Position numbers and translations under genes: made by a program. Of a stretch of 24,217 nt of DNA, positions 1 through 12,623 are shown piece by piece. Within the stretch, counting starts at the first letter, position 1; every line of letters begins with the position of its first letter. The notes beneath the pieces were generated by a model. That model ran no database searches. It had not been told where the DNA came from and saw nothing but the letters and a program-made list of their open reading frames with translations. Source of the DNA: a virus. The DNA lies in IMG/VR virus record IMGVR_UViG_3300010354_000637, positions 1-24,217 of that record; one strand, written 5' to 3'.

Positions 1-2282
1 ACAGTGGTATCAGAAACATTTGTAGTTGTTATAATAAATTTCACAGTTTCTCCTTCGGAAACTATTTCTTTATCTGATGTCACATCATACGTTGGAACTT
101 CAACAATTGTCAAATTAGGAGATGATCCTCCAGGTATATCACTAACTAAAAGATTGGAAGGTACGGTATCTGCTGGAGATGAACTATCTGGAATGTTTCC
201 GTCGTCATTTGGAATCAATTCTTTAATTGTGCATATTAAATATACCGATGTTTCAAACACAGCATAACATCCTTCTGGGGTACTTGACTCTCCCAATTCT
301 ACTTCAAATATTTCTGTTCCTTCATCAACAGTATCTAAAAATGTTTTAAATTCTATAGTTTTTGTGGTTTCTCCTGGAGAGAAAGCAATTATACCGCTTG
401 TCTCAACCTGTTCAAAATCTGCACCAAGAGTAGCTCCTATATTAATATTCTGTGGACTTAATTTATAAGTTAAGCTACTGCTCACATCAATTTTACCAGA
501 TCGAGTAATAGTAAATATTGCTGGCTGTCCTTCGTAAACTTCAATATCTTCAGAACTATAATTTATACTACCATAGGTAGTGTTTTGTAACTCCACATTA
601 TCCGATGGAATATCATCACCTGTATCTACATTTGAATTAGGATTTTTTGGTGGTTGATAAACTCCACCAATAAATCTAATGTTTGTTGGTGGTTGTTGTG
701 GATAATTTTTAGCTTCATCACAAATATTATTTGAAAAATCCAAATCTCCTTGTTCAATTGACTTTATTAAATTATCCAAGAAATCACCTTCTTCTTGAGA
801 TGTAGCACAATCTGTGCAAGTAACCTGAATCTTTTCACACTTAGCATCAGGACCGCTACAACTAATTCCTAATAAATTTAGTATCTTTGCAAGTGCATTA
901 CCTATAATATTTAAAGGAGAAGCAATCATACCGAGTAATGCTTGCAGTCCTCCAAGTACATCATTGATTAAAGTATCAATGTAACCTAAGATTTCATTAA
1001 TAATTCCATTAACTAACTCATCTATTAAACAAGTAGCTGCATTGAACGCATCTTGTATGTATCCCAGCAAAAGATCAGTCAACCATTGAGCTAATTTATC
1101 AGTAAGATCTTCCATCTTACATCCAATTTCTTTCAATAAATTGTCTAATAAAGTTTGAATACCTTTTATTCTAGATTTCTTTTTAGCTACAGCTGGATGA
1201 CCTCGTGTTGCATTTATTTGTTTAACAACTCTATCATATTCTTCCATGGCTGCTTTCGCACTTGCCACGTCTTTATTTGCTTCAGCAATAGCTAATACTT
1301 CTTTTGCTCCTTCTAATGCATTTTTTTCTTCTGTTGATAAAGGTTTGTTAATATCTTCTGGTATGATTGAAGTATCTTTTTCATACAGAACAGTGTCTAT
1401 TAATGATTTAGTAGCGCCTTTTAACTCTGTTATTATTTCTCCCTTTGCTCTAGCCATCAAACTTTTCACAAGTCTAGTAGCTCTAGTAATATGATATCTT
1501 CCAATAGATAATTGTTCATTCAATTCACCTGTAGCTTTGCTCACATAATAATCTCCTAACTGTCCATTTGATTGTTGATTTGCTCGTAGCATATCACCAA
1601 TGATATAAGTTAAAGATGATTTTAAATTCTTTTCAGTTCCACATTTTGGATTAGCAACAACTACACAAAATTTCCCTCCAGTTGGATTTGTTTCTGAATT
1701 TTCTCCAAACGCTCCCATCAATGCAGAAGGCCAACCACCCTCTTCTCCCGCCCTAGAACTCGCTACAGGGGGTCCTCCCATAGTATTTGATCCAGTTTCA
1801 TACGGAGAATTTTCTCCAGCTCTACCGTCCGATTCTGATGCAGGTAAATCTGTTGCTGGATTTACATCAGTTGCATATCTAGTAAAAGATTTACATTGCC
1901 CACCTGGATTTGGATCTTGATTAACAACTACAGTTGACCCAGGAACATGCCCAATTGATCCCATGACAATTGGTATTTGCTTTTCATCACTATCTAAATA
2001 AAAACCAATTACCCAATCTCCAATATGTAAATTAGAAGATGCTCCAGTTCTATTTGAATCGCTATAAGGAGTTGTGACTGGAAGCATAGTCATTGCCCAC
2101 GGAAGTTCTTCGGTGGGCATACTATCACAACTTTTTAAATGTTGTCCTACAATTCGTACTTTATATCTTCCTGCTTTTTTTGGATCTGCACTACGCTCAG
2201 ATTCTATTTGACCAATCCACCAAGAAAACCCATCTGATCCTATTTGATGCAAAGGAAATAAAGATGATAATGATTGATCCAT
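1..2282 (-). CDS. gp5: gp5-like baseplate hub/spike protein, 3' end outside window (partial)
   Basis: An uninterrupted frame runs from ATG at 2282 to the left edge (about 760 residues seen, no stop). Residues about 25-115 resemble the gp5/VgrG N-terminal OB-fold: RYKVRIVGQH, then PWAMTMLPV, then IGDWVIGFYLDSDEKQIPIVMGS. This fold joins the hub to the needle. A long helical, hydrophobic stretch lies at about 395-470, followed by a Cys-rich patch (CSGPDAKCEK, CTDC). From about residue 575 there is a Calx-beta-like repeat (EVYEGQPAIFTITRSG ... GADFEQVETSG ... IIAFSPGETTKTIEF), and a second one begins near 727 (VSEGETVKFIITT). I see no T4 gp5-type lysozyme domain in the visible part. It is the last visible gene of the late tail operon, 30 nt after the gp27-like gene, with a late promoter between. 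gp5 role by family and position; the Calx-beta call is from pattern only. Confidence 0.75.
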   Translation of the reverse strand, partial: MDQSLSSLFPLHQIGSDGFSWWIGQIESERSADPKKAGRYKVRIVGQHLKSCDSMPTEELPWAMTMLPVTTPYSDSNRTGASSNLHIGDWVIGFYLDSDEKQIPIVMGSIGHVPGSTVVVNQDPNPGGQCKSFTRYATDVNPATDLPASESDGRAGENSPYETGSNTMGGPPVASSRAGEEGGWPSALMGAFGENSETNPTGGKFCVVVANPKCGTEKNLKSSLTYIIGDMLRANQQSNGQLGDYYVSKATGELNEQLSIGRYHITRATRLVKSLMARAKGEIITELKGATKSLIDTVLYEKDTSIIPEDINKPLSTEEKNALEGAKEVLAIAEANKDVASAKAAMEEYDRVVKQINATRGHPAVAKKKSRIKGIQTLLDNLLKEIGCKMEDLTDKLAQWLTDLLLGYIQDAFNAATCLIDELVNGIINEILGYIDTLINDVLGGLQALLGMIASPLNIIGNALAKILNLLGISCSGPDAKCEKIQVTCTDCATSQEEGDFLDNLIKSIEQGDLDFSNNICDEAKNYPQQPPTNIRFIGGVYQPPKNPNSNVDTGDDIPSDNVELQNTTYGSINYSSEDIEVYEGQPAIFTITRSGKIDVSSSLTYKLSPQNINIGATLGADFEQVETSGIIAFSPGETTKTIEFKTFLDTVDEGTEIFEVELGESSTPEGCYAVFETSVYLICTIKELIPNDDGNIPDSSSPADTVPSNLLVSDIPGGSSPNLTIVEVPTYDVTSDKEIVSEGETVKFIITTTNVSDTT

Positions 2283-2305: not shown

Positions 2306-2313
2306 TATTTATT
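2306..2313 (-). promoter_or_regulatory. T4-type late promoter (AATAAATA)
   Basis: The minus strand reads AATAAATA, close to the T4/cyanophage late consensus TATAAATA, about 24 nt before the ATG at 2282. It overlaps the TAA stop of the upstream gene (2312-2314). Promoter function is inferred from motif and placement. Confidence 0.5.
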
Positions 2314-3727
2314 ACTTGTTTTCAATGGTCTTCCCATAAGAGTCTCGTATCAATGTCAAAAAAGTAAATGATTGCCTATTCTTAGGAGAAAAAGCATGAT
2401 TAACTTCTTTAATTAAATATACACCACTGTGAGTTTCATCATAAGGTGCTTGTGTTCTATTTGCTGATGGTATTTGATTAGGAACTTTTATTTCTATTTT
2501 ATCTCCAACCATTAAAGAAGGATTCCCTGGAATTTTTATCTTAACCACTTGATTCATCAAAGAATTTATTCTAGATATTGATTGAGAAATATAATATTTT
2601 TTAAAGTCTTGGAATGGAGCAGAAGAAGTGGAAGAAACTCCATTTCTATCTTTAGATTCGGCAGAAGCTATTCCAGATTCATTGTACCATGTTTCATGGT
2701 CCATCACTGCACTCATAATTCTAGTAGGATACTTTGACAATTCTTTTTGACCGTGTGGTAATTTTTCTTGCTTCCCTAAATGAGCCATATTGTCATAACT
2801 ATTGGCAAGAGAATATGAATATTCTTCATAAGAACCCGTGCTTGCATTATAGTAACATATTAAAGAAGAGAATGCTCCTGTTCTTAATTTTGTCATTATA
2901 TCTATCTCATCAACATAATCAATGTCTAATATTTTATTAGAGTTTGGTCCACCAAGATCTACATTCTCTTGTACATAAGTTCCTACTGGAAGAGAACCAT
3001 TAAATTTATTAGTAGATGAACATAAGCTATCGATAGATCTATAATTAAATCCTTTTTTGTTTTCATAAAATAAAAAGCCACCAGTACCAGTTGCTTTATC
3101 AGCAGAAGAATCTACAGAATCTAATAAGGATGTTGCAGATAATTTTTCTCCATTAGTTTTTTTCGTATTGTTATTTGATAAAGTATCTGCACTATCTTTA
3201 TGTACAGATTTAATCTGCATAGAATTTATAATAGTAAACGGAGTTTTTTTACCTGGATTGAATTTCATATTAAATTTTGTTTGGTCATAAAAAAATTCTT
3301 TTTCTGTCTTCAAATCATTTTTTAAAATACTCTCAACAATGGTCTCTGCTTTTCCACTCAATGTTTTTGGGATTCGTATTCCCTCATTAACTAATGCTTC
3401 TAAAGATACTAAACCAATTTTATAATTTTGGAATCGATCTCCAGTAAATCTGTTATAGATTTTGTAAACTCTAAGATTATATGTGTGAGATTTTTTATAA
3501 TAGTCTGTTAATTTTATTGTAATTTTTTCAAAGCCCTGCAATTTAGATACTAAATTAAATCCAGTGTCAACCAATTCGAGGCTACCCGAAACAGTTGGAT
3601 ATAATATGTCTTCAAAATAATCAAATCTAATAACTAGATCAGAAATATTTTTGAATGTATTTGATCCTATCAATTGTATTTCAACACTATCTAATAAAAA
3701 ATCTGAAGAATATGGTAATTCTCTCAT
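2312..3727 (-). CDS. Baseplate hub protein, gp27-like (cyanophage VrlC-type)
   Basis: A 471-residue protein in the late tail operon. Its ATG overlaps the stop of the SleB-type gene as ATGA (3724-3727), which points to translational coupling. The start MRELPYSSDFLLDSVEIQL and the early beta-rich part (residues about 20-130) look like the tail-hub fold that pairs with a gp5-type OB protein. In cyanophages a gene annotated VrlC often occupies this slot. The C-terminal part (residues about 390-465) is also beta-rich (VVKIKIPGNPSLMVGDKIEIK, GVYLIKEVNHAFSP), like the hub/tube domains that contact gp5. No catalytic motif was seen. The hub role is inferred from position directly before the gp5-like gene and from overall pattern; the gp27 relation is not proven. 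Confidence 0.6.
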   Translation of the reverse strand: MRELPYSSDFLLDSVEIQLIGSNTFKNISDLVIRFDYFEDILYPTVSGSLELVDTGFNLVSKLQGFEKITIKLTDYYKKSHTYNLRVYKIYNRFTGDRFQNYKIGLVSLEALVNEGIRIPKTLSGKAETIVESILKNDLKTEKEFFYDQTKFNMKFNPGKKTPFTIINSMQIKSVHKDSADTLSNNNTKKTNGEKLSATSLLDSVDSSADKATGTGGFLFYENKKGFNYRSIDSLCSSTNKFNGSLPVGTYVQENVDLGGPNSNKILDIDYVDEIDIMTKLRTGAFSSLICYYNASTGSYEEYSYSLANSYDNMAHLGKQEKLPHGQKELSKYPTRIMSAVMDHETWYNESGIASAESKDRNGVSSTSSAPFQDFKKYYISQSISRINSLMNQVVKIKIPGNPSLMVGDKIEIKVPNQIPSANRTQAPYDETHSGVYLIKEVNHAFSPKNRQSFTFLTLIRDSYGKTIENK

Positions 3728-6279
3728 GCTAAACCATCTCTTAAATATAATCCACTACTATTTAATATATTTACACTGGGACCAAGTGTATCAACCTGAC
3801 GACTAACAGTAGATGCTGTTTTTGATTGGGTTCCTCCTTGTGGTAAACCCAAAGCAATTATATTAGAAGAAGGAGAAGACTCGCTTTGTTGTAAAGGATT
3901 TAAACTTTGTGGTGTAGGAGGAGCAAATGATAACTGATTATTAGAATCTGGCTTACTAATAGATTCTGTTTGCATATATTGTTCAAACGCTTGCAATATT
4001 TTTGGTCCCTGAACAGTATTAGAATTCATATTAATTTTTTCATTCTTTGAATTATAGAAATCAAATCCCATAGTAGTTTTATAAGCCTGTACTTTACCAT
4101 AACCAGGAACATTAAAATATTTTTTCACATGAGGTTGAATAACCGTATCATAATTAGTAAATTGTTGACCAAGATCAACTGGAGCTACTGGAGCAGTAGG
4201 TGTTTGTTGTACTGGAGCTAAAGATCCAACTTGAGTTCCTATAGGGAAAACTCTTTGTAGAAATTTATGTTTATTTCCAGTAGAAGCAGTTGGCAAAGGT
4301 GCCCCAGATATATGATCAGTGAATGGTATGCTGTCAGCAATTGTTGGATTGTAATAAGTTTCAGATAAAGCTAATGCATTAGCTTCTGCTTCCGATTTCC
4401 CAGACGCTATAGCATTTTGTTTTATTTGAGCTGGATCTAATCCCCCTCCTCTAATACCAGCGTTTAAAGAAGTAAGAGCTTGTTCTTTGGTAATACCAGG
4501 AAGTTTTGGTATTGATTGGCTATATTGACCATCAGCCATTAAAATATCACGTATAGTAACCTCAGATGCTTTTTTCCCAGTAATACCCCATGCTTCTGGA
4601 GTTACTATTCCTTGTTTTATTTGCCTTTGTCTATTCAAAATAGAATTTAAAACGTGAGCAGTTCCTTCTTGTGAAGTTCCCGCCTCAGCATTTAACATTT
4701 TACCTAATAAAATTGTGTCTTCTTGACTCATTCCTTGTAGACTAACTGGAGATAAATCAGGATTGCCACCTGGAGGTGGGGGAGGATTATTAGGAATTTC
4801 ATCAACTTTTTTACCAAAGCTTTCTAAAAGTTTTGAAAATCCTTCAGTAAGTCTAGCTATAATATCTTTCTTCCCATAAGAATCTTCACGTTCTGCTGTA
4901 GGTTTTTTTATTCCAGCCTTAGCTTTTTTAGTTATACTAGATGGCAACCCAAATACATCAGCAATAGGTCTTGATATTTTTTCTATTTCGGGGGAAATAT
5001 TTTCACCAGAAGAACCCATTCTTTTCAATACTTCTGTAGTGGTAGCTAAAATAGTTCCTCCAGTAGCCATCATAGGAATACTCATGGTATCCATTAATGT
5101 TTGTGTCATCTTAGAATTTGCAGTGGTTCCTCCTCCAGCAATTCCAGTCATATTAGTGATACCAAATCCAAACTTACCACCAATAGAAGAATGTCTAGTT
5201 CCAGTTTCGTATGGTTTTGGTCTTGTTATACCATCAACTGCACTTGCTTTGCCTCTAGTATAGTTATTATCTAATGGAATCACAGCTTCATTACCATGTA
5301 ATTCAGCAAGATACCCAGTGTTAGGGCCAGAAAATATTCCACCTCTTTCTGCTTTTGGATAACCATATGCCTCCATATGTTCCATTTCAGATTTTTGTGC
5401 AGACTGAACAGAAATATTTTGAACATTAGTTATTGCTGTAGTCGGCGTTATACTTTGATTTGTTTGAGATTCATTAATTTGTGTTGTAGTATTATCAGGA
5501 ACTTCAGATGCTGAAGTATCTTTAATAGCTTCTAATCTATTTTCTTGCTGAATATCTTTTGCTTTATCTATAGATTGTTTTTGAAATTGGGTTTGATTAT
5601 TAATTGCATCAACTAATCTATCTAATTTATCTTCTATTATATTATTTCTAGTTTTCAGTTGTTCTGCGATATCACTTTGAGCAACAGATGCTCTCATAAT
5701 TCCAGCACTTACTTCATTATTATTTTCAGCTATTTTCTCTGCTGTTTTATTCAGACTATCTATGAGTACATTAAATGTATTAAATAGTTCTTCCTTCGAT
5801 ATCCTTTTGCTTCTTCCAGTAGTAGCTTTTTTAATTTTCTTTGCTGTACTTGGAATCTTTTTACTTTTAGGAATAACATTAGATGAATCAGTAGTATAAT
5901 CAAATAATTTTCTAAAGCTTTTAGATTTTTTACGATCAACTTCAACATCCACAAATTTTCTTTTAAGTAAAGCACCAATCGCTTTTGGATTATTTCTAAT
6001 TCTCTTTGCTAGCTTGACATTGTGTACAATCTTTTTTACTTTATCAAGTTTTTGTCCTAATGCTTCGCCACCAAATTCATGTCTTAATGCTTTTTTAAAA
6101 AAGTGTCCTTTCTTTATTCCCAGTTCTTCTAGCGTCGTTCCTTCTTCTAGTGCTTTCTTCTCAGCATACTCTCTTTCATCTTCGGCTAACTGTCTAGCAA
6201 CAAGAACTTTATGTATTACTTTACCAACAGGATTTACATAACCCCTAGTATCCGTAGCTGTTTCTAATCCAGCGGCCAT
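3724..6279 (-). CDS. Large tail protein with SleB-like cell-wall hydrolase domain
   Basis: An 851-residue protein. The basic N-terminal 160 residues are followed by helix-rich sequence (about 165-255). Residues 311-336 carry GGIFSGPNTGY ... LHGNEAVIPL, a motif seen in phage tape-measure-type proteins and found twice in the upstream 1561-residue protein. Residues about 517-675 resemble the SleB/Hydrolase_2 family: KMLNAEAGTSQEG, then AHVLNSILNR, with E532 the likely catalytic acid, and later SIPFTDHISG. A proline run (499-503) separates it from the preceding part. The start ATG has a good ribosome binding site, AAGAGGT, 7 nt upstream. It lies 24 nt after the 1561-residue gene. Likely role: a tail-carried lysin that opens peptidoglycan at injection, or a second tape-measure-like component. 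The domain call is from motif pattern; the virion location is inferred from the operon. Confidence 0.7.
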   Translation of the reverse strand: MAAGLETATDTRGYVNPVGKVIHKVLVARQLAEDEREYAEKKALEEGTTLEELGIKKGHFFKKALRHEFGGEALGQKLDKVKKIVHNVKLAKRIRNNPKAIGALLKRKFVDVEVDRKKSKSFRKLFDYTTDSSNVIPKSKKIPSTAKKIKKATTGRSKRISKEELFNTFNVLIDSLNKTAEKIAENNNEVSAGIMRASVAQSDIAEQLKTRNNIIEDKLDRLVDAINNQTQFQKQSIDKAKDIQQENRLEAIKDTSASEVPDNTTTQINESQTNQSITPTTAITNVQNISVQSAQKSEMEHMEAYGYPKAERGGIFSGPNTGYLAELHGNEAVIPLDNNYTRGKASAVDGITRPKPYETGTRHSSIGGKFGFGITNMTGIAGGGTTANSKMTQTLMDTMSIPMMATGGTILATTTEVLKRMGSSGENISPEIEKISRPIADVFGLPSSITKKAKAGIKKPTAEREDSYGKKDIIARLTEGFSKLLESFGKKVDEIPNNPPPPPGGNPDLSPVSLQGMSQEDTILLGKMLNAEAGTSQEGTAHVLNSILNRQRQIKQGIVTPEAWGITGKKASEVTIRDILMADGQYSQSIPKLPGITKEQALTSLNAGIRGGGLDPAQIKQNAIASGKSEAEANALALSETYYNPTIADSIPFTDHISGAPLPTASTGNKHKFLQRVFPIGTQVGSLAPVQQTPTAPVAPVDLGQQFTNYDTVIQPHVKKYFNVPGYGKVQAYKTTMGFDFYNSKNEKINMNSNTVQGPKILQAFEQYMQTESISKPDSNNQLSFAPPTPQSLNPLQQSESSPSSNIIALGLPQGGTQSKTASTVSRQVDTLGPSVNILNSSGLYLRDGLA

Positions 6280-6308: not shown

Positions 6309-9300
6309 TTCTACCAAGACGTTGTATATAAAGTTGTCTAGTGCTAGACGGCAATTCAGATTCTGATATCCATCTTCCAGGCATCTCTTCTCTAAACACT
6401 GCAGACACTGTTCCATTCATCACTGGAGCAGTTGGTTGATTCACGATTAAAAATTTAGTATCACTATCTTTATCCGATCCCTGAATAGATTCAAATCTCG
6501 GATTGGATGAAGGAGGAGAAATATTTTTATTAAATTCACCTCCTTGGTAAATTCCTTCGGATATATGGGTAGCAAGTTCATTAAACTTCGATGATGCAGT
6601 AAAGTTTTTACCATGTTCTTTTTCCCAAGCTACCATAGATCCCATCTCAACTAATGTCGCAGGAGATAATCCAGCTCTATTAATTGTAGCATTACTTTGA
6701 GTGTCAGTTGGTCCTAAATTACCAAGTTTAGGATTTGATTTTTGAAACATTGCAAGTCGTCGTTGAATTGGAGAAGCTAAAGAAGCATCTGCTCTATCTC
6801 CAGCTCCAATCCTAGTTAGAAATCCTGTTCCTCCTTGCCCAACTGCAGCATCAAAATGTAAAGGAACTACTCTCACTCCCTTACTTGCTTGAGAAGTAAT
6901 AAAATTATCGTAGTCTTGATAGTTTCCAAATTCTTCTGGTGTTATTATTCTAACTCGCAATCCTTTTGCTTCAAGTTTTGATTTTACTACCGATGCAGCA
7001 CTATCTTGGTGTTGTCTTTCTCTTCCAGCAGCACCTGTAGCAGAAGCATTTTTAAAAGTATTGCCTCCACGAGTATCAGGAATTTTATTTTCATTTCCTG
7101 GTTTAACGTGATCTAAAGGTATAATTACATCATAATTGCCAGATGGTTGTTGAGAACGTTGAGCCTGTTGCTGTTGATATGCTTGCTGTCTTGCTTTTTC
7201 AATCGAACCTTCAGGTCCTTTGCGAAGTTCTTTTAAAACATAGTCTCCAATTTGTGTTGCTTTAGGGTGGGGTGTATTTCTTGTTCCCTTTTGGAAAAAA
7301 TCTAAACTTGTATGGGCTCCAGTACCACTACCAACTTCCCTTCTTGTAGCTGGATTATTAAATTCTTCTCTTGTTGCCATTCTACCAAGATTTTGACCAA
7401 CAGATACTTTATCTCCTTGTTTGACTTTGATTTCTCCTTTAGGAAAATGAGCGTATAGCATATCAACTTCAGAACCATCTACTGGATTTGTTGATCTTAT
7501 TACTATATAATTTCCATAACCTGTTTGTGATTGTTCATTATATTGATGACCAATTTCAATAACTTCTCCCGAAAAAATAGCTCTATTTTGTGTTCCTTTT
7601 AATGTAAAATCAATACCTGGCTGCCTATCATCTTGACTGCCTCTAAGTAAAACAAATGGTTCTGCTCCAACTTCTCCTGGAGTACCAGGAGGTAGTAAAG
7701 GGTTTCTAAAATTTAAAAGTTTAATTTTAAACTTTTCCAAAACATCTAAAAATTTTCCAGATGGATCTATCATTTTGTAGAGTCTTTCAGAAAACATATC
7801 AGCATTTGAAGTTTCTAAAAGTTCTTTTTCAATTCCAGTCAATTCTTCATCAGCTAATTTAGTTTTTACATTTTTCATCGCAGAAGATAATGAAGATATA
7901 TTACCTCCTATAGGAGCACTAACAGATACATTTGGCACACCATATATTTTCGCTAATGGAGAAATCGCTTGCTTTATAGTAGGCGCAATAGAATTTGCAA
8001 CAGGTCCAGCTTTTTGTATATAATTTGAAGTAGCAGCTAATAACACACCCCCAATTGGATCGACTGGAGTGATATTATCTTTAGGAATAACTGCTTCAGT
8101 TCCATGAAGCATAGCTGTTCCAGGTTTAGTAAGTCCTCCTCGTTCATAATCTCCATCAGTTACTCCCAAAGCATCAGCAAAAAATGCTGCTATATGTTCA
8201 TCTCCTTTTCCAGTAGTAATAGCTCCAAGATTAGACTCAATATGTTTTGTATATGCAGGAGTATCAATGTCTCTCAACACATCGACCGCAGCAAATCCCC
8301 ACCCAGCAACTGGAATAGCACTACCAAAAGATAAGAACCCTCCTTTAATGTCGCCCATAGCCATACGAGCAAGACCTTCTCCGAGACCATAAACGGTAGA
8401 AACTCCAGGTATTAATTTACCAGCTAGTTTAACAGATAGTTTTTCTGCACCTTCTTTTCCTATTTTTTTAACTAATGCTTCTTGAACTTTTTTGCTTTTT
8501 AATATTTTAATTAAAATATTATCTCCACCAGTAGAAAATGCTTTGGCAGCTGGTTTGTCAGCACCTTGAGTAACCGCCCTAGAAACTCCAGGTAATGCTA
8601 TGTGTTCCCACCCCTTTGCTACTGCTCTGTTAGTTGCAGCAGTTGCAATCTTAGGAGCAAATCTATTACCTATACTTGTTAATGCTTTAGAAGATATTTT
8701 AGATGCTATTCGTGAAGGTAAGGTTACTATTTTATTAACTTTACCAAGTAAGTTTACTAATCTTTTTGGTAAAAATCCTCTTATCATTTTCCATAGATAC
8801 TTACCAACATTTGTCTGGAAAAATTTCCTGATTTTACTAATCATTCCTGGACCAGATTTTGATGAATCTTTTCTAGTATCAAACGGAGTTTCTAAGCCTG
8901 CAGATTTTCTAATTCTTTCTAATCCAGATTCACTACGTCCCAATTGTTGTTTATCATATAAATCTTTAGCAATACTATTTTGTCTGACAAATGCATCAGT
9001 TAATGCATCTATTTTATGTGCTAAAACTTCATCTTGTTCTTCAACTTTCTGTAAAGTAACAAATGATATGTCTACAATATTTTGTAGTAATAAATTTTGA
9101 TGTTGTATATTACTATCAATAGAATTTAATTTGTTTTGTACTTCTATAATTCCTTTAGACAAAAAGTTATATATTTTTGTGTTAGTAATTCCTGTTCTCT
9201 TTTCAGATTTTTCTTTTGTTGGTATTGTTTGTTTGCCAGTTTTTTTATTAACATGTTTAGCTAATGCTTCCCTGATTCCTTCTGGAAGATCGTCTAAAGC

Positions 9301-10989
9301 ATCTGCAGGAATTTCTGACGATGGTTCATTAATAACATCATTTAATAAATCATCCAAACCTTCTGGTTCTGAATCATCCTCTTCGTCATCGTCTTCATTT
9401 TTAATATCATTCAATAGATCATCTAATCCTTCTGGTTCTTCAGAATCTTCACGAATTTCTTTTAACTTCTGCTGAAGTCTTGCATTTTCTTCTTCTTTAA
9501 ATTTATTAAGCTTTTCCTGATCTTGTTTCAGCAATTCATCAATCATGTCCATAATATCAGATGCAGTTTCGTCAAGTGCTTCTTCTGCATTTGACAGTGT
9601 TTGATCTAAAAATTCTTTTTGATCATCAACAAATTTTTCTCCAGGACTATATACAGAAGTTTGAGAAGACTCCATGTATATTTCTCTTTCAAAATCAGAA
9701 TCTATTTTAGGAATTATTAAGGTAAGCTCATCGCCAGCTCCCCATCCACTTGGAGTTAATTCTCTAATCTTATCAATAATTTTTTTTCTATGGTCATGGA
9801 TTTCTTTAAATGTTAATCCTAAAGTATCTTGAAGCCAATCTAATACTTCTGTTTGCTTTGCTCCTTTAGGGAATGGAGATTTACCAGCAAAGTATACTGC
9901 GTGATCTAATACAGATTCAAATTCCAATTCCCAAACTGCAGATTGACCTTGAATGAATCTTGCTGGAGGAAGATTAACATCATTGAGAGGAATTACTGCC
10001 TCAGTTCCATGTAATATTACTGGATATCCAGATTCGGGACCAGAGAATACTCCACCTTCCGATGCTTGAGGAATAGTTCCTGGGAATCGATATTTTTTAT
10101 TAATAGAAGAAACAATTCCAGAAGTTTTAGACGCAATAGATGTTTTAGGTACAATAGTTCGTATCTTTTTAGGATTTTTTGTATTAATTTTTAGTGCTGT
10201 ATCTAATGCATTATACAAAAGTGAAATAATATTTTTTTCATTTCCAGCAGGAAGCAAAGATATCTTATGTAATTCATCAAAATATAGTGTTTCTTTTTTT
10301 TCGTCTCCTTCAATATCAGCATAGTCTGTAAACACAATCGTCGGATCTGCACCAACAAGTTTGCATATTATTTTAACAGTATTTCGTAAGATTCTATTGT
10401 ACGTTTTATACGATTTTGTATTTTCAAATGAGTGTGCTATTAATCCTAAAGCACCTTGACTAGGATCACTATTACTACCAAATATTGCTTCGTAATATGC
10501 AGCGCCAGATTTTTTTAATGCTTGTCCATAATCAAGAATCTTAACTTGATAATCATTAGTAATGAAAATATTTCCTGCATGAAGATCTCTATGAGCAATA
10601 TTTTTCCTGTGTAATGCCCCAACAGATTCTACAATCTTTCTAAAAATATAGTCAGCAAAAACAGGATCTTCTTTTATTTTTGATAGGTTATTCCATAAAG
10701 TATCTCCGTCAAACTTTTGAATAGCAGCAAATCCTTTTCCACTACCAAGTAGTTTAGGAGCAACTCCAATACCACTTGTTTGTTGTAGCATTTGTATCTC
10801 ATTCTCAAGAGCTTTCAATCCTTTAGAATGAGATACTTTTACTGCACTACCTTTAGTAGAATAGACTGTTCCAAAAGCACCTTGCCCCAATTTTTTATCA
10901 CCAAACATGCTAAACGCAGTGTTGTAGCCCAATAGTTTTCCAACTAATCTTATTCTTTTCGATAGTTTAAACTGGTTGGAGCTTTTCAT
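6304..10989 (-). CDS. Tape-measure-like tail protein with N-terminal protein kinase, degenerate M23 and C-terminal Amidase_3-like domains
   Basis: 1561 residues, the largest gene here. Residues 30-270 form a protein-kinase-like domain: glycine loop GQGAFGTVY (35-43), K51 in AVKV, E62 or E64 in the next helix, catalytic loop HRDLHAGN (133-140) and DYG (153-155). Residues 311-336 and 949-971 carry the LHGTEAVIP motif shared with the 851-residue neighbour. Residues 460-700 are acidic and coiled-coil-like, with a duplicated EPEGLDDLLND. A hydrophobic Gly/Ala-rich stretch spans 855-905. Residues 1106-1235 resemble an M23 peptidase fold but two metal-ligand His positions are Q1123 and S1228. Residues 1286-1485 resemble Amidase_3, with H1294, E1324, H1378 (PLHFDA) and E1448 (LVEMG). 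The start overlaps the -1 extension of the gp26-type gene (ATGA) and follows the chaperone gene, as tape measures do. Tape-measure role is inferred. Confidence 0.75.
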   Translation of the reverse strand: MKSSNQFKLSKRIRLVGKLLGYNTAFSMFGDKKLGQGAFGTVYSTKGSAVKVSHSKGLKALENEIQMLQQTSGIGVAPKLLGSGKGFAAIQKFDGDTLWNNLSKIKEDPVFADYIFRKIVESVGALHRKNIAHRDLHAGNIFITNDYQVKILDYGQALKKSGAAYYEAIFGSNSDPSQGALGLIAHSFENTKSYKTYNRILRNTVKIICKLVGADPTIVFTDYADIEGDEKKETLYFDELHKISLLPAGNEKNIISLLYNALDTALKINTKNPKKIRTIVPKTSIASKTSGIVSSINKKYRFPGTIPQASEGGVFSGPESGYPVILHGTEAVIPLNDVNLPPARFIQGQSAVWELEFESVLDHAVYFAGKSPFPKGAKQTEVLDWLQDTLGLTFKEIHDHRKKIIDKIRELTPSGWGAGDELTLIIPKIDSDFEREIYMESSQTSVYSPGEKFVDDQKEFLDQTLSNAEEALDETASDIMDMIDELLKQDQEKLNKFKEEENARLQQKLKEIREDSEEPEGLDDLLNDIKNEDDDEEDDSEPEGLDDLLNDVINEPSSEIPADALDDLPEGIREALAKHVNKKTGKQTIPTKEKSEKRTGITNTKIYNFLSKGIIEVQNKLNSIDSNIQHQNLLLQNIVDISFVTLQKVEEQDEVLAHKIDALTDAFVRQNSIAKDLYDKQQLGRSESGLERIRKSAGLETPFDTRKDSSKSGPGMISKIRKFFQTNVGKYLWKMIRGFLPKRLVNLLGKVNKIVTLPSRIASKISSKALTSIGNRFAPKIATAATNRAVAKGWEHIALPGVSRAVTQGADKPAAKAFSTGGDNILIKILKSKKVQEALVKKIGKEGAEKLSVKLAGKLIPGVSTVYGLGEGLARMAMGDIKGGFLSFGSAIPVAGWGFAAVDVLRDIDTPAYTKHIESNLGAITTGKGDEHIAAFFADALGVTDGDYERGGLTKPGTAMLHGTEAVIPKDNITPVDPIGGVLLAATSNYIQKAGPVANSIAPTIKQAISPLAKIYGVPNVSVSAPIGGNISSLSSAMKNVKTKLADEELTGIEKELLETSNADMFSERLYKMIDPSGKFLDVLEKFKIKLLNFRNPLLPPGTPGEVGAEPFVLLRGSQDDRQPGIDFTLKGTQNRAIFSGEVIEIGHQYNEQSQTGYGNYIVIRSTNPVDGSEVDMLYAHFPKGEIKVKQGDKVSVGQNLGRMATREEFNNPATRREVGSGTGAHTSLDFFQKGTRNTPHPKATQIGDYVLKELRKGPEGSIEKARQQAYQQQQAQRSQQPSGNYDVIIPLDHVKPGNENKIPDTRGGNTFKNASATGAAGRERQHQDSAASVVKSKLEAKGLRVRIITPEEFGNYQDYDNFITSQASKGVRVVPLHFDAAVGQGGTGFLTRIGAGDRADASLASPIQRRLAMFQKSNPKLGNLGPTDTQSNATINRAGLSPATLVEMGSMVAWEKEHGKNFTASSKFNELATHISEGIYQGGEFNKNISPPSSNPRFESIQGSDKDSDTKFLIVNQPTAPVMNGTVSAVFREEMPGRWISESELPSSTRQLYIQRLGRN
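9334..9444 (-). repeat. Tandem duplication encoding SEPEGLDDLLND
   Basis: Two copies, 9403-9444 and 9334-9375, encode EPEGLDDLLND twice, 69 nt apart in phase, joined by a run of Asp/Glu. Both lie in the acidic linker (residues 516-552) of the 1561-residue protein. Confidence 0.8.
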
Positions 10990-11174
10990 TTGTTTTTATT
11001 TGCTTCCCGTTTGGCTTCTTGTTCTTGTAAATATTGTTTCAATAAAGCAATATAAACTTCTCTTTCCCAAGGTATTAAATTTTCAACTTCACTTAAAGAG
11101 TACTTATGATATTGTAACAAAGCAAAATTAGTTTTGTAATACCCCTCCAAACTATTTTGGAAGAGTGCTATACG
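10986..11174 (-). CDS. -1 frame extension of the gp26-type protein (frameshift product of 298 residues)
   Basis: In the -1 frame after the slippery site, 62 codons run to TGA at 10988-10986. The peptide starts RIALFQNSLEGYYKTNFALL, continues QYHKYSLSEVENLIPWEREV, and ends with a Lys/Glu-rich helix. It has no ATG and no start codon with a ribosome binding site; the only near candidate is a TTG at about 11150. Its stop overlaps the tape-measure-like start as ATGA, as expected for a translated, coupled reading frame. The region is otherwise a gene-less gap of 178 nt in a very compact operon. Fusion to residues 1-236 of the gp26-type protein would give 298 residues. Composition (aromatic and charged, helix-like, with an EREVY core) looks like real protein. 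This is the G/GT arrangement of lambda-type tails; translation itself has not been shown. Confidence 0.8.
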   Translation of the reverse strand, partial: RIALFQNSLEGYYKTNFALLQYHKYSLSEVENLIPWEREVYIALLKQYLQEQEAKREANKNK

Positions 11175-11180
11175 AAAAAA
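11141..11180 (-). promoter_or_regulatory. Programmed -1 ribosomal frameshift site with downstream hairpin
   Basis: On the minus strand, T TTT TTC at 11180-11174 is in the zero frame (codons AAT TTT TTC GTA TAG) and fits the X XXY YYZ rule. A 7-nt spacer (GTATAGC) follows. The hairpin is ACTCTTCCAAA (11166-11156), loop ATAG, then TTTGGAGGGGT (11151-11141): 11 pairs, two of them G-U. The zero-frame stop lies 3 nt after the heptamer. Confidence 0.8.
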
Positions 11181-11881
11181 TTTTGTAACCCCTCTATAGT
11201 ATACTTTGATGTGTTACCTGTTAATGGATTAACAACTTCAAAATCATGCTTTAATCTAGGCATAGTATCATAGAACTTTTGAATAGCTTCGAACTGTTGT
11301 ACAGTGAGAGTATCTAAAAATTCCTTGAACTCTTTTTTAGATGTTGTACTAGAATCATAAACACTTTCCGAATCAAATATTTGTTCTATGTGTTCAGAAA
11401 TAAAATCAAATACTTCTGTTGTTTTTAAATCTTTACCCAAAAATTCAGATTCTATAAACCTTTGCATACTTGGATATTTCATAATCATCCCAGTATTTTC
11501 AGTCAGCATGATCTTATTTGAATGTCCTTCTGGTTTATAAACTTCAACATCATTTATATTAATAGCCACATCAACTTGAGTTTCATTATCATCTTGACAA
11601 GTCACTTTCATAGAAATAATCTCGCCAACAGATGCAGCACGAATCTTCAGAAAAATATATTCCAGATCAAAAGAAGGCAAATCATCTACTTTGATTCTAG
11701 ATAGTACACAATTTTTTATTAGATCTTTCACTGCACTTGTTATTTGCTTATCATCTTCCGACTCTAAAGCAAGTAAAAGAATCTTTTCTTCTTTAACTAA
11801 GAATGGTCTGTATTTAATATCTTTCCCAGTTGAAGGTAATTTCAATTCAAGAGAAGGAACTGCAATTTTAGGTAAAGCCAT
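11168..11881 (-). CDS. gp26: gp26/gp51-type baseplate hub assembly protein (tail chaperone, zero-frame product)
   Basis: A 237-residue protein ending at TAG 11170-11168. The N-terminal block YRPFLVKEEKILLLALES with following helices is typical of the T4 baseplate family that includes gp26 and gp51, which act in hub assembly. Residues about 45-70 carry DLIKNCVLSRIKVDDLP, and the C terminus has YTIEGLQNFFV. The start ATG at 11881 has no clear Shine-Dalgarno site; a late promoter lies 26 nt upstream. The gene sits between a gp54-like tube gene and the tape-measure-like gene, the slot of tail assembly chaperones. Its last codons contain a slippery heptamer (see 11141-11180), so a longer fusion is likely also made. 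T4 gp26 is about 208 residues, so the size fits. The family call is strong; the chaperone role is inferred. Confidence 0.8.
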   Translation of the reverse strand: MALPKIAVPSLELKLPSTGKDIKYRPFLVKEEKILLLALESEDDKQITSAVKDLIKNCVLSRIKVDDLPSFDLEYIFLKIRAASVGEIISMKVTCQDDNETQVDVAININDVEVYKPEGHSNKIMLTENTGMIMKYPSMQRFIESEFLGKDLKTTEVFDFISEHIEQIFDSESVYDSSTTSKKEFKEFLDTLTVQQFEAIQKFYDTMPRLKHDFEVVNPLTGNTSKYTIEGLQNFFV

Positions 11882-11906: not shown

Positions 11907-11914
11907 TATTTATC
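11907..11914 (-). promoter_or_regulatory. T4-type late promoter (GATAAATA)
   Basis: The minus strand reads GATAAATA, 26 nt before the ATG of the gp26-type gene at 11881. It overlaps the TAA stop (11910-11912) of the gp54-like gene. Confidence 0.55.
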
Positions 11915-12623
11915 CAGTATACTTACCACTAATATTGTTGTAGATAATCGTATGTTTTCTGTAATAAAAATTGGCAGTAACTTTAGTTATTTGAGATGTG
12001 CCATACGATAAAGGAACAGCATCAATTGAATATGGATAGCAATCTTGTAATAAGTATGAAATAGGTGCTCTACTATTAGGGGCACTCCTACCTCTCTCAG
12101 TTTTAGTAATTTTAACGTCACAAAGATACTCAGATGGAAATTTTAATCTAGTTGTTCTGTCTATAGGATTAGCTCTTTTGGATTTTAAAGATTCTAAATT
12201 AAGTGTTTTATCAGAAATAACAGAATCAAGGCTAGTTCCTTCTCCATATATGTAATCATACCAGGCTGTCAAAAATTTTAATGGGGTCATGTTAGCATCG
12301 CTCATCCACCCAAGAGAAAAATCACTATACAATTTTGTGTGAGGATAACTTACAGCACCTTCACCTAAAACAACTCCAGTTACTTGTCCAGTTGCAGATT
12401 GTATGTTAGGTAATTGTGCCTCATCACATAAATGTTGAATTAAAAATCCCGCTTTTGATGGACTATCAGTTGAAGAAGGATCGGATCCCAATACTTTAAT
12501 CAGCCAAGACTTTAAATCATTCCTATTCCCAAAATTAAATTCTACATCATATCCATTTGTCATGGACATGCCACCAGCTTGAGATATAGCTGAAATAAAA
12601 TTACTTATTGATGCTGGTGCCAC
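11910..12623 (-). CDS. gp54: gp54-like baseplate tail-tube initiator protein
   Basis: A 237-residue protein with the tail-tube fold pattern. The N terminus is MAPASISNFISAISQAGG, the middle has LCDEAQLPNIQSATGQVTG (as in tube proteins, the loop before the strand that forms the ring), and the C-terminal half has SYLLQDCYPYSIDAVPLSYG followed by ITKVTANFYYRKH, as in T4 gp54 and gp19. gp54 caps the baseplate and starts tube polymerisation, next to gp48. The sheath and main tube genes are not here, and gp48 is encoded just across the divergent promoter, so gp54 is preferred over gp19; T4 gp54 is longer (about 320 residues). It is the first gene of the minus-strand late operon. Transcription probably starts from the late promoter at 12651-12658. 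Confidence 0.7.
   Translation of the reverse strand: MAPASISNFISAISQAGGMSMTNGYDVEFNFGNRNDLKSWLIKVLGSDPSSTDSPSKAGFLIQHLCDEAQLPNIQSATGQVTGVVLGEGAVSYPHTKLYSDFSLGWMSDANMTPLKFLTAWYDYIYGEGTSLDSVISDKTLNLESLKSKRANPIDRTTRLKFPSEYLCDVKITKTERGRSAPNSRAPISYLLQDCYPYSIDAVPLSYGTSQITKVTANFYYRKHTIIYNNISGKYTG

Follow-up and report, generated by a model that had tools for sequence, protein, structure and literature searches.

Why does a gene in the tail region of a marine cyanophage open with what reads as a protein kinase, and where in infection would an enzyme built into a tail protein act? The window, that is, the whole stretch of DNA analyzed here, is a 24,217-base virus record with the gene content of a T4-like cyanophage, including gp5, gp26, tail tube, gp48-type and gp53-type proteins. 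From reading the sequence only, gp32, a PhoH-type ATPase, thyX-like and speD-like genes and the C-terminal part of psbA appear to be in the window as well. The source virus is a phage of marine cyanobacteria, with a tail-gene order of the Kyanoviridae type in which large proteins occupy a slot between gp51 and a hub-like tail protein. The genes in question are these:

3..2282, minus strand: gp5-like baseplate hub subunit, truncated at the end of the window (PHROG 1922, E 4.5e-167)
2312..3727, minus strand: hub-like "tail protein" (PHROG 350, E 3.4e-107)
3724..6279, minus strand: large tail-slot protein 2 (851 aa), which contains an LHGNEAVIPL motif of its own as well as a CORE1 segment
6304..10989, minus strand: large tail-slot protein 1, 1561 aa, with N-terminal kinase, spacer modules, shared core segments, Peptidase_M23 and C-terminal domain
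10986..11150, minus strand: short gp51-like ORF with a TTG start (gp51 is annotated there in S-PM2, Syn1 and S-SM1)
11168..11881, minus strand: gp26-like baseplate hub protein (Pfam T4_baseplate, E 5.4e-68)
11910..12623, minus strand: tail tube protein with a GTG start (Pfam Phage_TTP_2, E 4e-53; PHROG tail tube)

The stop of the gp51-like ORF overlaps the start of the kinase ORF (ATGA), and 463 phage records contain matches to the hub-like tail protein. Late promoter words of the T4 type (TATAAATA) were no more frequent than chance in the sequence checked. In the gp5-like spike protein (window 3-2282), residues 576-668 make up a Calx-beta domain (E 1e-6).

The kinase itself occupies the start of protein 1:

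10903..10989, minus strand: N-terminal residues 1-29 (QFKLSKRIR...), kept in the kinase-bearing members according to their alignment
10171..10902, minus strand: protein kinase domain, residues 30-273 (Pfam Pkinase, five-member alignment, PDB profile and fold searches)

A preliminary description of this DNA had placed a complete kinase domain at 10180-10902 (residues 30-270), at the head of a tail-region protein. The motifs on which it relied are present in the order given: GQGAFGTVY at residues 35-43, AVK with K51, the helix-C glutamate E64, HRDLHAGN at 133-140 and DYG at 153-155. Profile searches of the N-terminal region, proposed there as a check, bear this out. Pfam Pkinase matches the whole protein at E 1.3e-11, with 44.8 bits against a cut-off of 31.7. 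Kinase-directed scans of a viral contig collection gave four further distinct kinase-bearing contigs, L005 (identical to L004), L019, L101 and L104; over the kinase, these relatives share 58-70% identity with the window. Pkinase matches all five members, with a best E of 2.5e-14, and a profile built from the five recovers kinases from the PDB at E 5e-15, the top match being BRAF (59 bits, over residues 29-163). Structure prediction agrees in part. Foldseek with the AlphaFold model lists kinases first, but at TM-scores of only about 0.25, and the model has a pLDDT of 61 overall and a poor N-lobe; because of these values, it was relied on for the C-lobe only. In VIA-align, residues 92-277 of this model (pLDDT 61) superpose on classical kinase C-lobes with a Z of about 7 (131 residues, 3.6 A). 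The C-lobe had been called not clear, and this is now answered in part, since all five members can be aligned over residues 161-275, which are partly conserved and align to kinase C-lobes, although in a weak model. Pfam, the PDB profile and the fold search agree on a kinase domain.

The suggestion that the domain is closer to atypical, RIO or aminoglycoside kinases found no support. Over the whole protein, Pkinase (44.8 bits) exceeds ABC1 (19.5), APH (12.8) and Kdo (11.8), the last three lying below cut-off; it also outscores WaaY, and Pfam lists no RIO model for the window protein. With the domain alone, Pkinase reaches 50.4 bits and ABC1 narrowly passes its cut-off (24 vs 22.9). By profile, then, the domain is nearest to classical, BRAF-like kinases, and the atypical look is confined to the DLHxGN loop. 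PADLOC matches to PD-T4-6 and mads_6 look like generic kinase-fold matches.

In Kyanoviridae, the order is tail tube, gp26, gp51, protein 1, protein 2, hub-like tail protein and gp5, and it recurs, with minor variation in which genes are present and how they are arranged, in S-CAM3, S-CAM1, S-RSM4, S-PM2, Sf-CH1b, Syn1, Sf-FP1, S-SM1, Syn9, S-CREM2 and S-N03. For instance, S-RSM4 has one large protein in the slot, and in Sf-FR1, protein 1 comes after gp53 instead. The kinase-bearing protein lies in this same slot, 3′ of gp26, in all five members. Tape-measure PHROGs match 9 or fewer of 55 slot proteins, some of them weakly, and none is listed for the window protein. The slot proteins measure 1565 and 1456 aa in S-CREM2, with its 418 nm tail, and 933 and 722 aa in S-N03, with a tail of 138 nm, a comparison that is informative in direction only.

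What stands at the N terminus in this slot varies: a kinase in five contigs, an ADP-ribosyltransferase (ART) in S-PM2 and one contig, small shuffled modules, or nothing. In a module map of about 100 proteins, the kinase, the ART and the small modules M1, M2 and M3 are combined in various ways before shared core segments and varied hydrolases. Sf-FR1, for example, has M1, M3, core segments and M23 without the kinase; Pfam at E 0.05 did not recover the "MuF C-terminal domain" named in its label. In S-PM2, p209 (L014:1593-5096) matches Pfam ART at E 1.3e-5 over residues 66-218 and also carries a tail lysozyme; the gene is annotated as "hypothetical protein". It resembles the window protein in its slot, its N-terminal protein-modifying enzyme, its glycine-rich linker motif and its C-terminal wall hydrolase, and differs in having an ART rather than a kinase and a tail lysozyme rather than M23. 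A second protein (L118:4851-8063) starts 169 bases after gp26 with an N-terminal ART that is 78% identical to that of S-PM2 and keeps the ExE region. The Pfam domains counted over the 55 complete slot proteins are Phage_lysozyme2 (6 proteins), Hydrolase_2 (4), Phage_lysozyme (3), M23 (3) and ART (1). A different or absent enzyme at the same spot in relatives suggests a swappable N-terminal module. The kinase is rare: the kinase-directed scans of the viral collection turned up just these members. All five are uncultured contigs, no phage isolate in the collection has a kinase at this slot at E 1e-3, and the cellular genomes searched yielded no kinase-bearing relative.

Whether such a protein travels in the particle can be judged by analogy with S-CREM2, where mass spectrometry of virions detected the two large slot products abundantly, through 73 and 71 unique peptides (PMC10665884). 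Protein 1 of S-CREM2 corresponds to the window protein by position; no link in sequence between the two was found. By this analogy, a virion location of the window protein, as first proposed, is likely. On the reading that we prefer, and to which we give an even chance, the kinase is an optional protein-modifying enzyme on a tail hub or tape-measure-type protein, which would be carried in the virion, delivered to the host and there phosphorylate host proteins. What we infer in it is virion membership in this virus, kinase activity, delivery and target. Protein 1 would be made from the late baseplate operon and then built into the virion. Upon infection, the wall hydrolases that follow in the protein would open the peptidoglycan, and the hydrolases of the slot proteins fit a role in entry. 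The N-terminal kinase would then enter the cytoplasm together with hub or tape-measure material and, with ATP available, phosphorylate host proteins at the start of infection.

A kinase needs ATP and must therefore act in cytoplasm, either that of the newly infected cell or that of the cell producing virions. It could thus act late, in the producing cell, where it would phosphorylate host proteins or tail proteins of the phage while particles are assembled or the cell is lysed, and be merely carried along. This we regard as unlikely, though it is the most probable of the alternatives; ATP is available in the producing cell, and the kinase is encoded in the late baseplate operon, with its start overlapping gp51. 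Nevertheless, S-CREM2 virions contain the slot product in abundance, and S-PM2 has in place of the kinase an ART, the enzyme type to which Alt belongs, a head protein injected by T4 (PMC9503650). The exchange of kinase for ART would thus favor the newly infected cell.

The remainder of protein 1 is built from the following parts:

9979..10068, minus strand: post-kinase linker, residues 308-337, GGVFSGPxSGYPVxLHGTEAVIPL (similar motifs after the kinase in L005, L101 and L104)
9757..9957, minus strand: small shuffled module M3, residues 345-411, common to L005, L019, L101, L104 and phage Sf-FR1
8869..9186, minus strand: CORE1, a shared core segment (residues 602-707) that occurs in both protein 1 and protein 2 among several phages
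8062..8433, minus strand: shared core segment (residues 853-976) with a second motif, LHGTEAVIPK, at its end
7354..7623, minus strand: Peptidase_M23, residues 1123-1212 (Pfam E 3.8e-9, above cut-off)
6544..7143, minus strand: C-terminal domain, residues 1283-1482, 59% identical to part of Sf-CH1b protein 2

Motifs of the GGxxxxxGYxxxLHGxEAVIPL type recur at window 9979-10068 and 8080-8166 in protein 1 and at 5266-5361 in protein 2, and those of the LHGxEAVIPL type in protein 1 sit beside enzyme domains. By eye only, the C-terminal domain looks amidase-like; Pfam gives no match for residues 1283-1482. The C terminus seems to have been exchanged too, because of its 59% identity to Sf-CH1b protein 2 and because L005 differs there (32% identity with the window over residues 1280-1561).

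The linker bears on a further alternative, namely that the kinase is cleaved off at residues 275-340 and acts, or is packaged, separately, as are the stand-alone kinases of other Kyanoviridae. The existence of those kinases and the conservation of the glycine-rich motif after the kinase in four of the five members speak for it. It is nonetheless improbable, as there is no known cleavage site and the motif is also present at other places in proteins 1 and 2, including ones with no enzyme before it.

The loss of K51, D135 or D153 in most homologues had been named as evidence against the kinase; all three are kept, and K51, E64, R134, D135, N140, D153 and G155 are invariant in the five members. 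Estimates of dN/dS, from one pair (window vs L005) and by a simple counting method, are 0.14 for residues 30-160, 0.43 for residues 161-275, 0.17 for M23, 0.38 for the spacer (residues 431-800) and 0.88 for the C terminus. The catalytic core thus has the lowest value among the segments compared, which fits an active enzyme, and the kinase is probably complete and predicted to be active. A degenerate or purely structural pseudokinase is the least probable alternative: H133 is replaced by Q in three of the five members, a His stands two residues after the catalytic Asp where Ser/Thr kinases usually have Lys, and the AlphaFold N-lobe is poor, but none of the ATP-binding and catalytic residues varies, and no other region compared is as constrained as the core.

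A broader proposal, which we offer tentatively, is that a tail hub or tape-measure protein of T4-like cyanophages provides a polymorphic effector slot, with an exchangeable kinase or ART delivered by the tail, separate from head-packaged effectors such as T4 Alt. If this is true, cyanophages would modify host proteins via the tail as soon as infection begins. The proposal can be tested in a cultured phage, S-PM2, for which it predicts an ADP-ribosyltransferase in the tail, and it would make this late slot, whose products are mostly annotated as hypothetical or endolysin, a place to seek more effectors.

Several known systems are comparable. T7 gp0.7 and T4 Alt, like the proposed kinase, are phage enzymes that modify host proteins. 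The T7 protein kinase gp0.7 is synthesized after entry and is not known to be part of the virion. T4 Alt is an ADP-ribosyltransferase of the head that is injected into the host (PMC9503650). Polyvalent proteins and MuF- or portal-fused effectors are large virion proteins with swappable enzymes, including kinases and ARTs, that are thought to enter the host (PMC5512222, PMC9503650). These, however, are described as head-borne, whereas the window kinase lies in the tail hub region. In addition, polyvalent-protein kinases are without the whole C-terminal subdomain (PMC5512222), while the window kinase keeps residues 161-275 in all five members, and Pfam lists no polyvalent kinase model for the window protein or its family. 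Kinases in cyanophage virions and head-borne injected enzymes are therefore already known; a kinase fused to this tail protein may be new, as no report of it was found in the open-access literature searched, including PMC10665884, PMC5512222 and PMC9503650.

The cyanophage virion kinases already known are stand-alone: examples are S-CREM2 gp14 and those of S-CBWM1, S-CRM01 and S-TIM5, and gp14 was detected in virions by mass spectrometry (PMC10665884). They belong to the kinase superfamily and, in those read, share with the window kinase an LGxGAFGxVY-like glycine loop and a D-x-H/N-x-G-N loop. By contrast, they are separate genes, and those of S-CREM2 gp14 and of its counterparts in S-B68 and MA01 are found outside the tail operon. 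With the five-member profile, stand-alone cyanophage kinases reach 26-43 bits against 59 bits for BRAF; a special kinship or common origin with them is unsupported, because their scores fall below that of BRAF. Strong E-values for S-B68, MA01 and S-CREM2 were set aside because the iterated profile had absorbed these sequences. Near the stand-alone virion kinase gene of S-CREM2 lies gp12 (L110:4205-6814), which is annotated as a Cas9-type nuclease and virion protein.
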